From positions 744,001 through 808,000 of the forward strand of contig JAHXHN010000003.1 of assembly GCA_025656675.1 (NCBI GenBank): a DNA stretch of 64,000 nt. Reading direction: 5' to 3'. Source of the DNA: Candidatus Thiodiazotropha sp. (ex Codakia rugifera) (lineage in GTDB: Bacteria; Pseudomonadota; Gammaproteobacteria; Chromatiales; Chromatiaceae). This document shows positions 3,018 to 7,601 of the stretch, piece by piece. The notes below the pieces were generated by a model. It was not told where the DNA came from, did not search any database, and saw only the letters and a list, made by a program, of their open reading frames with translations. Position numbers and translations under genes: made by a program. How positions within the stretch are numbered: position 1 is the stretch's first letter; every line of letters starts with the position of its first letter.

Positions 3018-3680
3018 TTATATTGAGCGTTTTTTTCTTGATATGCCAATTAAAGCTATTAAGCCAGTGCCAAAAAGCCAAATTGCCGCTGGAACCGGCA
3101 CTTGACTCAGCGGTTCACCAGTAAGATTCAGCGCCAGGTTTGAGTTAATACGCAAAGATCCAAATGTACTCGCACCAAGCATATCTTCACTCTCATCAAA
3201 CTGACGAAAGTCTATGGCCAAGCCTAATACATCATTTCCAGTGCCATATTCAATTGCAAGTACGTCGAACCACCCGCCAAGCGTGTTATTTCCTCGACCA
3301 TTGCCACTAAAGTCCAAGCCGGGACGTGTTGGTGAGTTAAAAGGATAGCGTGTTGCATTATTGTAAAATCCAGTTTCTAAACGATTCCCTGTATTGGTAT
3401 TGCTGATAGGATCATAAGTGGGCGCTGCAAAATCGAAACGCCAATAGTTGCCATCATCAAATGTTACAGACGCACCTTGGTCAAAATTACCAGTAATACT
3501 GAATAAGCCTTCTATACCATGCGTCCAGGTAACTTCACTGGCACCAATACCGCCACCAACCCAGCTTCCAGGTTCAGCATTTAGATAGACTGACCCAGTT
3601 GATGCTAGTGCTGCTGTTGCTTGTTTAGAAAAAATTACAATGGTTGATATAGCAATGATTTTTAGTATGTGATTTAACAT
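3018..3680 (-). CDS. PEP-CTERM sorting domain protein, exported
   Basis: About 220 residues with an N-terminal signal peptide (hydrophobic I-I-A-I-S-T-I-V-I-F, cleavage near A-T-A-A). The C-terminal anchor begins V-P-V-P-A-A-I-W-L-F-G, continues as a hydrophobic helix and ends with R-K-K-R. That is the gammaproteobacterial form of the PEP-CTERM signal, which exosortase (EpsH/XrtA type) recognises to place proteins on or outside the outer membrane, often with an exopolysaccharide. The body has no catalytic motif I know and is rich in Gly, Asn and Asp. The ATG at 3680 has GGAG about 6 nt upstream, so I prefer it to an in-frame ATG four codons earlier. No exosortase gene is in the window. Confidence 0.78.
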   Translation of the reverse strand: MLNHILKIIAISTIVIFSKQATAALASTGSVYLNAEPGSWVGGGIGASEVTWTHGIEGLFSITGNFDQGASVTFDDGNYWRFDFAAPTYDPISNTNTGNRLETGFYNNATRYPFNSPTRPGLDFSGNGRGNNTLGGWFDVLAIEYGTGNDVLGLAIDFRQFDESEDMLGASTFGSLRINSNLALNLTGEPLSQVPVPAAIWLFGTGLIALIGISRKKRSI

Positions 3681-3699
3681 TTTAATCTCCATAAGAATA

Positions 3700-4341
3700 T
3701 TATAAATTCTTCCATGACATACACGGGAATATATGCACCATTTGAGAATTTAATGATAGTGGAAAGCGTTTTCTATTTGTAAACATCCATTTGTTAATAC
3801 AATTCCATCCAAATATGTGGTCTCCGAGTGTATAGACAGGGTTATCGCACCGTTCTGGATGCATTTCACCGATCTGATTAAGCTTTTTCGCATGCCTGAA
3901 ATGGCTATCCCCTGATATCAACATCATGTTCAGACACTTTTTAGTGACCATCCTGAAATCCGGTTGCTGGCAGAGACCACTGAAACGCAGCAGCATTGGC
4001 TGGAAAACCTGTGACCCATTTATCGTGGTACTGAATGGCCATATCGTCCGAGGGTGGACGCCTTTTGACGAATGCTCTGCCATCTGCAAAAAATACTTTG
4101 GGCAGACTTGTTTGATTGGGGCTATTGATCTGCTGGTAAGCAATCTTTGGAAAAAAACCAACCAACGGTCGGCCATGGTTATGAGATGGTCGATCAAGCT
4201 GTTGAAAGTTTGAAGTACTTTTTGGGAAATAGATTCCCGGATTTTTACCGATATGTCCTGGTTGCAATTGTTAACCAGGATGATTCTAAAAACACTGAGA
4301 AGAGTTACCTTGGCTCGATAATTCGATTCCGTCGTTTCCAC
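3700..4341 (-). CDS. Unrecognised open frame upstream of the PEP-CTERM gene
   Basis: An uninterrupted 213-codon minus-strand frame starting at GTG with a GGGAG sequence about 9 nt upstream, and ending only 8 bp before the longest PEP-CTERM reading frame. I do not recognise the product. The composition (many Phe, Met, Cys and Asn, no long hydrophobic helix, no repeats) is not convincing for a real protein, and the same DNA is open in other frames: minus 3941-4267, plus 3926-4213 and plus 4147-4518. It may be degenerate or accessory DNA rather than a gene. Listed because this 800-bp stretch holds nothing better. Confidence 0.2.
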   Translation of the reverse strand: METTESNYRAKVTLLSVFRIILVNNCNQDISVKIRESISQKVLQTFNSLIDHLITMADRWLVFFQRLLTSRSIAPIKQVCPKYFLQMAEHSSKGVHPRTIWPFSTTINGSQVFQPMLLRFSGLCQQPDFRMVTKKCLNMMLISGDSHFRHAKKLNQIGEMHPERCDNPVYTLGDHIFGWNCINKWMFTNRKRFPLSLNSQMVHIFPCMSWKNL

Positions 4342-4465
4342 CCCAAAAAGCTCCCTGGTGAATGCTCCAATACTGAACCAGCCTCCTTTCTAGAGCATTT
4401 GGCCTTTAAACGCAAGGCCTCAGGGTCAACTCAGAGACTGATTTTAAGTGCACTAGCCATCTTTC

Positions 4466-5127
4466 TCCTTCACGGGGTTTTACCCAAAATTCACGGACAC
4501 ATAAAAAAGGGCCGATAATGGCCGTGGAGGTGTGTCATGCAGAAACGTAGAAAATACTCAGAGGAGGAGTATAAAAAGAGAAGCTGTAGCTGTGACCATG
4601 GCCAATCAACCTGGCGTCACACTGAAAGAAATTGGAGAAACACTCGGTATTAATCCAGGCATGATCTGTCGTTGGCGCGATGCCTTTCCGGTTCGCATGA
4701 TGTGTCTCTGCCTAAGTGTTTCACCCAGTGGCTACTATGATTGGCGGTCCAGACCGCTGAGCAATAGAGAAAAAGGCAATCAGCGTTTGCTGGACCTTAT
4801 CAGGGACTTGCATGCAGAAAGCGATGGTGTGAAGGGTGCACCCCGAATCTGGGAAGATCTTCAATATGAGGGAGAGCATTGCAGCATGAGTGGTGTTGGC
4901 AGTTTTGCTGATAATGTGGTGATGGAAGGCTTTTTTGGTCTACTCAAGCGTGAGCGCGTAAACCGTAAGATTTACCAGACTCGTTCAGAGGCCAGAACCG
5001 ATGTATTCGATTACACTGCGCGCTCCCACAACCCAAGGCACAGGAGAAAACTTGATGGGCTTAAACAAAAGAAATTACTCTTAACTCAACCGTCCGTCGA
5101 AACTGGGTAAAATCCTTGCCCGGTGGA
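4466..5127 (+). mobile_element. Decayed IS3-family insertion sequence
   Basis: A transposase remnant (4537-5110) is bracketed by imperfect inverted repeats. On the left, about 4474-4499 reads G-G-T-T-T-T-A-C-C-C-A and then C-G-G-A-C. On the right, about 5085-5116, read on the minus strand, gives A-T-T-T-T-A-C-C-C-A and then C-G-G-A-C. The outer ends and any target duplication are too eroded to place, so the limits are approximate. At about 660 bp it is roughly half the length of an intact IS3-family element, because the core of the transposase is missing. The right end abuts or lies inside a truncated integron attC site. Confidence 0.7.
4537..5110 (+). pseudogene. IS3-family transposase remnant (orfA/orfB fusion)
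   Basis: The ATG at 4537 follows GGAGG at 4526-4530 and starts an OrfA N-terminus (M-Q-K-R-R-K-Y-S-E-E-E-Y-K). An extra A in the A-run near 4572-4577 shifts the frame; the sense continues as R-E-A-V-A-V-T-M-A-N-Q-P-G-V-T-L, with a helix-turn-helix (L-K-E-I-G-E-T-L-G-I). It then jumps to the OrfB start (S-P-S-G-Y-Y-D-W-R-S-R-P, H-A-E-S-D-G) and directly to the OrfB end (M-E-G-F-F-G-L-L-K-R-E, then N-P-R-H-R-R-K-L-D-G). The middle of the integrase core, with the first two acidic residues of the DDE triad, is deleted. It cannot be active. Confidence 0.85.
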
Positions 5128-5142
5128 GCTATTTGTTAAGCG
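5121..5142 (-). other. Truncated integron attC site (R'' end) of cassette 2
   Basis: On the minus strand, just after the stop of the 5148-5513 gene, the sequence reads CGCTTAAC followed by AAATAG. CGCTTAAC is the exact reverse complement of GTTAAGCG, which opens the same cassette at 5521-5528, as expected when R'' and R' come from one recombination unit. The rest of the attC is replaced by the IS3 remnant. Confidence 0.65.
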
Positions 5143-5147
5143 TAACC

Positions 5148-5513
5148 TCACTTCGAGCCTGCAGCATAGCCAATAGCATAACCAATGGCCCCGAGAATAA
5201 AGCAATAAACCGGCAGAACTGCGAAAATTAATGCACTTGTCGAACTGCCCGTAGCCGCACCATTTATATCAAAATACCATTGCATGTGAACAAACCACAT
5301 TAGAGGTATCACTGGTATGAGAAAACCGACAACAGCCGCAATTTGACGTTTTTTCCTTTTCTTGCCTGCTACTATGGTTTGTGCATAGATCACTATGAGG
5401 GGTAAAAGTACCCAAAGTGAAAATATATTAGGAACAACATTAGCCAAAAACAAACAGGCTACTACAGTAACGCCGATTACTATCTGAATTATTTTTGTGT
5501 CGATACGTTCCAT
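5148..5513 (-). CDS. Integron cassette 2: small multi-pass membrane protein
   Basis: About 121 residues. The start at 5513 is chosen because it lies just inside the cassette boundary; longer in-frame versions would begin within the attC site. Three hydrophobic segments are visible: residues about 8-40 (V-V-A-C-L-F-L-A-N and onward, possibly two passes), about 58-75 (I-A-A-V-V-G-F-L-I-P-V-I) and about 95-118 (S-A-L-I-F-A-V-L-P-V-Y). A basic stretch K-K-R-K-K-R separates the first pair from the next and should lie in the cytoplasm. No known family is recognised. Like most cassette genes it fills its cassette almost completely and has no promoter of its own that I can see. Confidence 0.6.
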   Translation of the reverse strand: MERIDTKIIQIVIGVTVVACLFLANVVPNIFSLWVLLPLIVIYAQTIVAGKKRKKRQIAAVVGFLIPVIPLMWFVHMQWYFDINGAATGSSTSALIFAVLPVYCFILGAIGYAIGYAAGSK

Positions 5514-5521
5514 GTTTTTAC

Positions 5522-5608
5522 GCTTAACGCCACAATTCACCGGAAGGAAAAAGCATAGCGAGGAACGAGCGGCGCTATTGCCGTCCGTGTGAAATTGCCT
5601 TGTTATAC
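5522..5608 (-). other. Integron attC recombination site between two cassettes
   Basis: Read on the minus strand, 87 bp run from GTATAAC (R'', 5602-5608) through AAGGCAATTTCAC and a GC-rich imperfectly self-complementary middle to GGTGAATTGTGGC and GTTAAGC (R', 5522-5528). The arms AAGGCAATTTCAC and GTGAATTGTGGC pair, giving the folded single-strand structure that integron integrases bind. R'' matches the R' of the upstream cassette (GTTATAC at 5895-5901) by reverse complement, so the boundaries are self-consistent. Confidence 0.8.
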
Positions 5609-5616
5609 GCCACCAT

Positions 5617-5889
5617 TTATTCAAGCTCCTTTTCGAATACTGCGATGTGTTCTTTTACCGCAGGATGCCTACGAACCCATAATTCACCTAAATATTGACT
5701 TACGTTCAAGCCTTTAAGAACGTAGGTGACTTCATTTTTCTTTGCAGCTTGAAGAAGGTCGTGGCCCTTACCCATAACATCTTCACTTACTTCTGCGGTA
5801 AACTCACCTAGTTCTTCACCCCATTCCTTTTGAATGGCTGAGATCAACTTTCCAGCCGCTTTTTCGAGGGGTGTTTTCTTCTTTGCCAT
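5617..5889 (-). CDS. Integron cassette 1: small hypothetical protein
   Basis: About 90 residues, M-A-K-K-K-T-P-L-E-K-A-A-G-K at the start, soluble, Lys/Glu-rich and probably mostly helical. No family is recognised and no catalytic motif is visible. The ATG at 5887-5889 is only 6 nt inside the cassette boundary GTTATAC (5895-5901), leaving no room for a normal ribosome site, which is common for cassette genes. The stop is 8 nt before the attC. Expression would depend on transcription entering from the right (minus direction). A longer in-frame start at 5958 would cross the cassette junction and is rejected. Confidence 0.6.
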   Translation of the reverse strand: MAKKKTPLEKAAGKLISAIQKEWGEELGEFTAEVSEDVMGKGHDLLQAAKKNEVTYVLKGLNVSQYLGELWVRRHPAVKEHIAVFEKELE

Positions 5890-5894
5890 ATTAC

Positions 5895-5901
5895 GTATAA
5901 C
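5895..5901 (-). other. Cassette 1 left boundary (R' core, GTTATAC)
   Basis: The minus-strand GTTATAC is the reverse complement of GTATAAC, which opens the attC at the other end of the same cassette. The DNA to its right on the map (TTAAAT side) lacks the paired L' box of an attC, so it may be an attI-like or secondary insertion site. No integrase gene is found between here and 6590. Confidence 0.6.
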
Positions 5902-6286
5902 ATTTAAGTAGAAGGCAACTTGCTTCCTATCCCACCTATTTCCTGATTCAACAGGCAATCTGCCTTCTATCCAGCCTAATCAGGTAGAATCAAAGGCAAT
6001 ATGCATGAAAATAATTGTGCAGTTTGCCTGCTATTTGCGTTTCAGGAAGGGGTCGAATAGAAGAAACCTCCCTGTTTAAACTCACTTTTACCTCATTTTT
6101 CATCTTCTTACCAATATCTTTATCTTAGCCTCGCAGCTTGCCCAAAACCTACTATTCAGTAAATACAGGCAACTTGTCTTCTATCCCCAAACGATTACCC
6201 AGACACTCATCCTAAAATATTGCCAGATTCAACACTATGTTGGATTCTACTGATAACGAACCTTATCGATATTCAGGAGCGATATC
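5902..6286. repeat. Gene-free stretch with three copies of a 20-bp direct repeat
   Basis: Three similar copies of AGGCAAYYTGYYTYCTATCC lie at 5913-5932, 5953-5972 and 6167-6186. Less exact pieces (AGGCAATATGC near 5993, TTTGCCTGCTAT near 6023) lie between. CCTGATT at 5942-5948 and AATCAGG at 5978-5984 form a loose inverted repeat around the second copy. No coding sequence is visible. Their position against the cassette boundary suggests either remnants of an integron recombination region or an unrelated repeat. Confidence 0.55.
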
Positions 6287-6456
6287 ATGTCCAAGCCAAG
6301 AGCAGGCTTTTCTGCAAGCTACCCCCTATTACCACCATGTCTACAGTTGTGTAAGACGTGTTTACCTCGGTGGTGAGGATGTAATAATCAGGTAGCAGTT
6401 TCGAGCACCGCCACCAATGGATTCAGGATAAGCTATTCGTGCTGAATTGTGTGTAG
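6287..6456 (+). pseudogene. REP-associated tyrosine (Y1) transposase gene, broken
   Basis: The ATG at 6287 has AGGAGC upstream and begins M-S-K-P-R, a frequent opening of RAYT proteins. After a frameshift near 6300-6312 the sense continues as L-Q-A-T-P-Y-Y-H-H-V-Y-S-C-V-R-R-V-Y-L-G, matching the family's T-P-Y-Y-H-x-x-x-R-x-V-R-R-A-F-L-x-G segment. A second frameshift near 6390 leads to S-F-E-H-R-H-Q-W-I-Q-D-K-L, again typical. It then stops at 6454-6456, and the later catalytic H-x-H and Tyr regions are absent. RAYTs are linked to REP palindromes; REP-like sequences occur elsewhere in this window. The 134 bp up to 6590 hold nothing I recognise. Confidence 0.72.
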
Positions 6457-6590
6457 CCTTCCCGCACCTCTATGCTTCTGTTTGGTGCGGAGGATCACAC
6501 CTTTCTACATGCGCATCATCTAAAAATGCCGAGCATCGTCTGGGCAAAGGACGTGAAGATGAGCTTTGATACAGTCTTGTTATATAGAAC

Positions 6591-7601
6591 TCAATGATTC
6601 AACCAATACCTGACATCCTGACTTTTCAAGAAGGCCTCGGCATCCGCTCCTTGCAACAAAGCAAAGGTTGCCAATACCCCTGCCTCGGTACAGGTGTTTG
6701 CGGCAACGGTTACAGAACGAGGTGCATGCTCAATGGGCCAACCTGTTTTGGGATTGAGCACATGTCCGTAGCGTTTGCCGTCATGCTGTAAAAAACGGCG
6801 TGCATCGCCACTGGTTGCAAGAGCACCTTTGCGGATCTTCAGAACACCGGCTGCAGCGTCGGGCTGATTCGGATTTTCTATCCCTACCGACCAGTGTTTA
6901 GCAGATTTAGTTCGGCTATTGGCATGGATATCCCCACCGAAATTAACCAACAATCCCTCTTTTGTCATTTGCTGTAAGAGCAGTAGTGTTCTGTCTACTG
7001 CATACTCCTTGCCTATGCCACCAAAATCAATCTCCATGCCTTCTGGTAGTGTAAAAAAAGGACGTGACCAGTTGACATGTTGCCATCCAACCAGGGGTAA
7101 GATTGCTTCAATAGCCGCCTGTTCAGGAATATCGCTGCCACCGTTAAATTTCCAGACACGCCGTAACACGCCGGATGTTATATCGAACATGCCTTCGCTG
7201 AGCTCCCAACACTGCTGAGCAAAATCGAGCAGGTGAGAAACTTCATCGTCCACTTTAACTGGCTGACCGTTGCTATTATTGAGTTGATGAACAATATTAT
7301 CCTCCCGGTACCGGCTGAATTTTTGTTCAATTCGCCAGGCTTCACCGGAAGCTATTTGAAGTAGTTTATTGGCAAGTGATTGATCATCGACTTCCATGAA
7401 AATATCACAGGGACTGGCCATTGCCTGAAAATGTCCTTTCCAATAGCCATCAGCCGATTCAAGTGTGGGTGGGCTGTTTTGATTGTTGAATTGTGATTTT
7501 GATTGAGGCCCTTCTGAAGGCGTAACCACTATTTCAATCCTTACTGCGTGTTGTGATGTTAATTTCCCTGAATACCATCCTTGGGTTCGAAAACGGTGCA
7601 T
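6591..7601 (-). CDS. apbE: FAD:protein FMN transferase (ApbE)
   Basis: ApbE moves FMN from FAD onto a Ser or Thr of exported target proteins. Visible family signatures, in order: A-M-A-S-P-C-D near the domain start, F-S-R-Y-R-E-D-N, I-D-F-G-G-I-G-K-E-Y-A-V-D (flavin/Mg site), A-L-A-T-S-G-D-A-R-R-F, G-H-V-L-N-P-K-T-G and C-T-E-A-G-V-L. About 336 residues from the ATG at 7601; a GTG at 7529 with AAGGA 8 nt upstream is an equally good start, since the first 60 residues are outside the domain. Neither start gives a signal peptide, which is odd for a family that usually works in the periplasm. It is last in the row trx-DUF4266-DUF3570-apbE. Confidence 0.88.
   Translation of the reverse strand: MHRFRTQGWYSGKLTSQHAVRIEIVVTPSEGPQSKSQFNNQNSPPTLESADGYWKGHFQAMASPCDIFMEVDDQSLANKLLQIASGEAWRIEQKFSRYREDNIVHQLNNSNGQPVKVDDEVSHLLDFAQQCWELSEGMFDITSGVLRRVWKFNGGSDIPEQAAIEAILPLVGWQHVNWSRPFFTLPEGMEIDFGGIGKEYAVDRTLLLLQQMTKEGLLVNFGGDIHANSRTKSAKHWSVGIENPNQPDAAAGVLKIRKGALATSGDARRFLQHDGKRYGHVLNPKTGWPIEHAPRSVTVAANTCTEAGVLATFALLQGADAEAFLKSQDVRYWLNH

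Follow-up and report, generated by a model that had tools for sequence, protein, structure and literature searches.

A probable attI-anchored remnant of a chromosomal integron in Candidatus Thiodiazotropha and related attI sites across the genus

Features of the locus and its cassettes

The window, meaning the whole 64-kb stretch of Candidatus Thiodiazotropha DNA that was analyzed, carries on its minus strand, from right to left, an attI site with its leader, cassette 1, a complete attC (attC1), cassette 2, and the 5′ half of a second attC (attC2), which adjoins the remnant of an IS3-family transposon. Beyond this remnant, a long integron integrase gene on the plus strand survives as an N-terminal stump (Table 1). 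The two small minus-strand genes of the original prediction are borne out as ORFs of 90 and 121 aa, both nested in longer frames with alternative starts. The cassettes had been described as bounded by matching attC ends, and the complementary words are indeed present: GTTATAC (5895–5901, minus strand) is the reverse complement of GTATAAC (5602–5608, minus strand), and GTTAAGCG (5521–5528, minus strand) is the reverse complement of CGCTTAAC (5135–5142, minus strand). However, only one of the two attCs is complete. In attC2, the CGCTTAAC sequence is followed by the 5′ arm and then by the end of the IS3-type remnant; the 3′ half is absent, and the site was not detected in the 64-kb window by the covariance model described below.

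Table 1. Positions of the integron-related features in the window (G and C numbers denote genomes and contigs)
Feature	Positions	Strand	Basis or remark
attI of type A with leader	5899–6194	minus	Crossover GTT at 5899–5901; cut before the expected intI start (~6267)
Cassette 1, with 90-aa ORF at 5617–5889	5528–5900	minus	Start GTTATAC complementary to R″ GTATAAC
attC1, complete	5521–5608	minus	Covariance model R1, 87.3 bits, E 5.3e-24 (family membership)
Cassette 2, with 121-aa ORF at 5148–5513	5136–5527	minus	Start GTTAAGCG complementary to R″ CGCTTAAC
attC2, 5′ half only (R″ and 5′ arm)	5116–5143	minus	18 of 19 bases shared with a complete attC of the G018 array, E 0.017 (computed over the loci compared)
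IS3-family transposon remnant, internally deleted, with degraded inverted ends	4476–5117	plus	Ends read by eye
Type B (long) integron integrase pseudogene, N-terminal part only	3835–4503	plus	tblastn
Remnant of Y1-type (REP-associated) transposase gene adjoining the leader, where intI would be expected	6194–6447	plus	82% to G001:C59

The covariance model R1 was built from 12 attCs of 11 genomes, two of them from the source genome itself (contigs C5 and C6), with the window site excluded. Because its members were chosen for their resemblance to the window attC, an R1 score measures family membership and is not an unbiased genome-wide call. Read in this way, the attC that had been predicted between the two genes with a paired fold scored high, and it is the sole R1 match in the 64 kb at E-values up to 5. 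The R1 structure is paired in 97.8% of the cells across the 12 attCs, and its covariation score exceeds those of all 500 shuffles; the count of pairs changed on both sides is unremarkable, being reached by 50 of 500 shuffles, and the folding energy of attC1 as DNA is no better than that of shuffles (z −0.4 and −0.9). Two R1 members sit in arrays near an intact intI, at 8.4 kb in G024 and at 9.5 kb in G003, and the G024 array contains an additional R1 match 4.5 kb from the intact gene. Over the source genome, R1 returned eight rows at E up to 1, five of which exceed 45 bits, including the two model members and the window site. A home-made scorer of attC arms gave values of up to 30 for background and 32 for attC1, and because it was insufficiently specific it was dropped as evidence. 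On contig C6 of the source genome, at ~239231 (G000:C6, L014), another group of cassettes lies apart from intI; it contains an attC that resembles the window's at 77% and an ORF that by eye looks like a TIR-type protein.

Neither cassette product has a significant match in Pfam, NCBIfam, PADLOC, or PHROGs, in agreement with the original view that they match no known family; by its composition, the 121-aa product looks like a membrane protein. Product 1 was found in none of 55 sampled relatives. In a protein search confined to a class-wide sample of 368 other genomes, product 1 occurred in two and product 2 in six, with no genome in both lists, and the two genes, predicted to lie in separate cassettes, were not found together in the genomes searched. 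R1 found no attC beside the three of the six product 2 relatives that were checked, and none was seen by eye at the one of the two product 1 relatives that was read. Among viral contigs, 13 stretches fit the pattern of product 1, none of them confirmed. A sigma-70 scan of 5000–6300, which bears on a cassette promoter (Pc) directed into the array, gave one promoter-like site, on the plus strand within cassette 1; this is below the shuffles, which gave 2.8 on average. Rfam had no match, either at the gathering threshold over the entire window or in E-value mode over 4400–6600.

Elsewhere in the window, positions 2895–2985 form a very stable hairpin (z −5.0 and −6.2 versus shuffles) that ends in GCGTTATGG. 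It lies behind a PEP-CTERM gene (3018–3692, minus strand), and its 3′ end is attC-like but without an AAC R″. The PEP-CTERM gene was considered as a possible additional cassette.

The attI, its leader, and the neighboring remnants

In a DNA search with 4200–6600 as the query, window positions 5891–6117 matched the DNA just before intact intI genes in G003, G020, G018, and G004. When these sites are aligned, the homology starts at the same base, at an AAC (GTT in the cassette orientation), and most of the cassette sides are dissimilar. The stretch 5899–6194 is homologous to the leader between attI and intI of intact integrons in sister species. A sequence model, R2, of eight attI sites (three with intI and five orphan, the window excluded) matched the window at 5899–6045 with 114.8 bits and E 8.5e-35, and two weaker rows correspond to repeats within the leader. 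At nine sites, seven of them with intact genes, integrase homology from residue 1 begins 365–371 bases from the core. In the window the leader homology ends near 6194, where the Y1-type transposase remnant starts. In the 11 pairs compared, the core itself did not consistently exceed the leader in conservation. Judged by these homologies, cassette 1 borders at its right on an attI and not on the attC end of the original prediction. Within the leader, at 5911–6186, a GGCAA..TTGCC palindrome recurs as three direct copies and an inverted pair; these possible integrase-binding repeats are partly conserved in the leaders of sister species.

No integrase match was found within 3 kb to the right of the window attI. 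The remnant present there is 82% alike to G001:C59, where an open frame of the same kind extends to the contig end, and we take its transposase family to be the one named Y1/REP. At the other side of the locus, the IS3 remnant matches NCBIfam transpos_IS3 in two stretches (E 6e-30, below the curated cut-off), and 41–42 bp at its right end match G003 and G020 at 93%. The type B pseudogene, ~0.6 kb beyond the array, is 38% identical over 223 aa to a 463-aa IntI of G024 (tblastn, E 1e-39); one ORF in it matches TIGR02249 with E 8.5e-9, below the curated cut-off, and its genuine homology probably extends only to about 4475, where the IS ends. Its integrase type differs from the type that goes with the window attI, and upstream of it no type B attI scored above shuffles. 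Long IntI proteins such as that at L033:1045–2433 (G024) and its relatives form a group with open frames of ~460–490 aa. In one that was examined, Pfam Phage_int_SAM_4 matches two stretches, which suggests a duplicated core-binding domain.

The original prediction saw no integrase and proposed a search of the remaining genome for one. A working intI is indeed lacking beside the array, but the type B pseudogene is present in the window and one intact intI occurs elsewhere in the source genome, at C15:4620–5642, accompanied by a cassette array that, as read by eye, reaches the contig end. The C15 IntI and type A share 57% identity. An intact type A integrase was not found in the source genome, where the DNA search with 4200–6600 gave no match on C15. 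Degraded integrase pieces occur on C9, C6, C2, and C5 as well as in the window; those at C9:10741–12445 (G000, L068) lie on opposite strands within 2 kb.

The genes that serve as landmarks here and below (thrS, GAPDH, ubiA, exbD, tonB, and DUF3570) were identified by eye from sequence, and ApbE was identified by a Pfam match. In five relatives (G005, G019, G020, G015, and G021), a variable interval containing other genes lies between tonB and an apbE-DUF3570 block. This is the interval in which the window has its integron debris, and in G021 (L116:7456–7719) and G015 (L115:5264–5436) it contains short pieces of integrases of other types, of up to 95 aa at 43%; integron debris at this place is therefore not unique to the source species. 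A long apbE match (at least 800 bp) is present in 14 of the 22 genus genomes, the source included, and in none of the 13 others is there a type A attI match within 400 kb on the apbE contig. G001, which is 91% alike across apbE, has a different gene there, on a 4-kb contig.

attI sites and shared cassettes across the genus

R2 matched in 15 of the 22 genus genomes. The 45 rows comprise 34 sites and 11 opposite-strand echoes; 33 sites were inspected (G016:C10 was left out), and G020:C52 and G005:C168, which have no core at the expected place, were dropped, leaving 31. Seven of these have an intact intI, five have a broken one, and 19 have no integrase match within 3 kb (at the G008 site, the scan covered 2.2 kb to the right of the core). 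A search for the exact core pattern over the whole species collection, from which near records of the window are possibly omitted, found eight stretches, in records of Candidatus Thiodiazotropha or a Ctena orbiculata symbiont. Orphan attIs recur at thrS in five genomes (the source, G001, G003, G009, and G020) and beside the GAPDH gene in two (G003 and G020). The thrS copy in the source genome has lost the GTT core and most of the leader.

Among the 31 sites, five have no AAC at the core and four have less than 300 bp of cassette side, and the remaining 22 allow the R″ word of the first cassette to be compared with the start of that cassette. The two are exactly complementary at 15 sites, with ~2 expected from random words, and eight of the 15 have no intI. 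The match failed at the other seven (G006 C3, G009 C24, G016 C7, G002 C3, G005 C118b, G016 C25, and G019 C16). Orphan sites bear normal cassettes, with cassette replacement seen between close relatives. At the GAPDH orphan, the leader and flank of G003 and G020 are 98.1% alike across 2500 bp, whereas their cassette sides are without similarity (1500 and 242 bp compared).

Cassettes are also shared among attIs. In G020 the same cassette, identical over the 237 bp compared, stands at the ubiA attI with intI and at the GAPDH orphan, whose leaders are 72% alike; this cassette also lies directly before another type of intI in G009 and 1.5 kb before the corresponding intI in the single-contig genome G003. 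In G004 a related cassette end is next to four attIs. Two of them, a type A site (C9) and a type B site (C1), have an intI, and the other two (C7 and C5) are type B orphans without an integrase match over 15.9 and 19.2 kb. All four sites are at contig ends, where no more than 33 to 87 bp of the cassette can be read. The shared cassettes of both G004 and G020 lie at assembly contig ends. Stretches of the single-contig genome G015, one near a linked attI and the other near an orphan, have 763 bp in common at 91.7%, and the GAPDH orphan of G003 has 742 bp in common with a linked G015 array at 82%. The thrS cassettes are common to G003 and G009. Between G003 and G020, the attI and leader of the thrS orphan are 83–89% alike and the next stretch is 99% alike; whole-array exchange by homologous recombination could therefore explain that replacement. 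In G003 the R″ of the first cassette is followed, at the ubiA as well as the thrS attI (L074 and L075), by a stretch of 1197 bp that is 100% identical between the two sites. The stretch includes an IS110-like ORF (named by eye) and may therefore be an attC-targeting IS.

The replacement and sharing of cassettes at common orphan attIs suggest that integrases act in trans, and on these sequence comparisons they would reach dispersed orphan attIs across the genus.

Interpretation and comparison with known systems

Two components of a complete integron, an attI recognized by sequence comparison and attC-bearing cassettes, are present in the window, and the third, an intact adjoining intI, is absent. 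We consider it highly probable that the locus is the decayed, attI-anchored stump of a sedentary chromosomal integron of the genus-specific type A. The attI anchor marks the array as what is left of a complete integron, as opposed to an attC cluster standing free. The anatomy suggests that an integrase formerly inserted cassettes at this attI. The intI would later have been lost, and a Y1-type transposase remnant now adjoins the leader; an IS3-family element appears to have replaced the distal half of attC2, bringing the array next to the type B integrase stump. The junctions themselves are observed, and the order of these events is the part we infer. Since attC1 is complete and the attI retains its GTT core, cassette 1 could in principle still be moved by an integrase made elsewhere, for example the C15 IntI. 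Activity of this enzyme on the window attI is unproven, given its distance from type A and the lack of an intact type A integrase among the genes found.

A functional array, with the orphan attI and its cassettes maintained and used in trans by the C15 integrase, would accord with the cassette replacement and sharing seen at orphan attIs of sister species and with the intact core GTT and attC1 of the window. We regard this as unlikely, however, with the leader cut, attC2 broken by the IS remnant, no match to 4200–6600 on C15, and a C15 IntI of another type. The array shows no sign of recent exchange, with product 1 in none of the 55 relatives and no attI near apbE in 13 genomes, and the window locus is probably a relic.

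The original prediction classed the locus as a CALIN. This holds insofar as the array is integron-derived and has no functional intI nearby, but not in the sense of a free attC cluster, for which an attI anchor is foreign. In the strict form of this reading, the cassettes were inserted by a remote integrase at a non-attI (attG-like) site and the locus was never a complete integron. Insertion at attG is known from the literature (in the part of PMC12444791 drawn on here), no intI stands directly beside the array, and an intact one exists elsewhere in the genome; the insertion point nevertheless has ~300 bp of homology to intI-linked attI leaders, which is unexpected of an attG and largely refutes this very improbable origin. 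Scarcely credible is the alternative that the leader represents a dispersed element, mobile or repetitive, in which a GTT happens to occur, with cassettes adjoining by chance, since its GGCAA..TTGCC palindromes and its occurrence in up to several copies per genome are outweighed by the cassette boundary at the same base in aligned sites, the near-constant distance to integrase homology at nine sites, and the matching R″ of the first cassette at 15 of 22 testable sites.

With the window locus read as an integron stump, a broader proposal can be made, on which our judgment is evenly balanced: the genus would have a distributed integron, its dispersed, leader-bearing attIs mostly lacking a dedicated integrase. 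One integrase or a few would load these sites in trans, one cassette might stand first at several attIs at once, and the window array would be a decaying satellite. The window remnant is modestly interesting in itself; the related sites suggest a distributed integron with more attI sites than integrases. If loading in trans is true, a few integrases could serve many first-position sites in one genome, and models of cassette expression and exchange in chromosomal integrons would change accordingly. Such loading of orphan attIs is testable with existing recombination assays. A search of the open-access literature found no paper describing dispersed integrase-less attI sites in one genome, which is weak evidence, as subscription papers lay mostly outside it.

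The part of the IntegronFinder account used here (PMC9024848) describes CALINs as proposed degraded integrons that are called from attC sites, by default in version 2 from at least two of them, with attI undetected outside class 1. The window resembles a CALIN so described in having attC cassettes without a working intI nearby, and it differs in that its array is anchored by an attI with leader and contains only one complete attC. By R1, which is specific to one attC family, the count is one complete and one half attC; with one full attC only, the locus would probably miss the default call. An attI kept in an intI-less array separates decayed integrons from cassettes dropped at other sites, and an analysis of the R2 type provides an attI model for a genus.

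The decayed integrons and CALINs of Xanthomonas (PMC12444791) are similar in their conserved chromosomal loci and loss of intI. The sections of that report considered here place CALINs away from intI at seven loci and regard mobilization in trans as possible, and they report no attI at the remote CALINs, whereas here several loci have orphan attIs with leader, along with replacement and sharing of cassettes. In the genome survey of PMC2426708, as far as the portion used here extends, 20% of integron bearers had more than one intI and nearly a third of the intI genes were pseudogenes. The genus resembles those genomes in its several integrons and intI pseudogenes; by choice, that survey searched for intI alone and not for attI sites without it. 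The delta-attI of mobile integron cassettes (PMC12901181) is likewise an attI away from its integrase. In contrast to the short attI pieces inside class 1 and class 2 cassettes treated in the relevant part of that paper, whole leaders head chromosomal arrays in Candidatus Thiodiazotropha.
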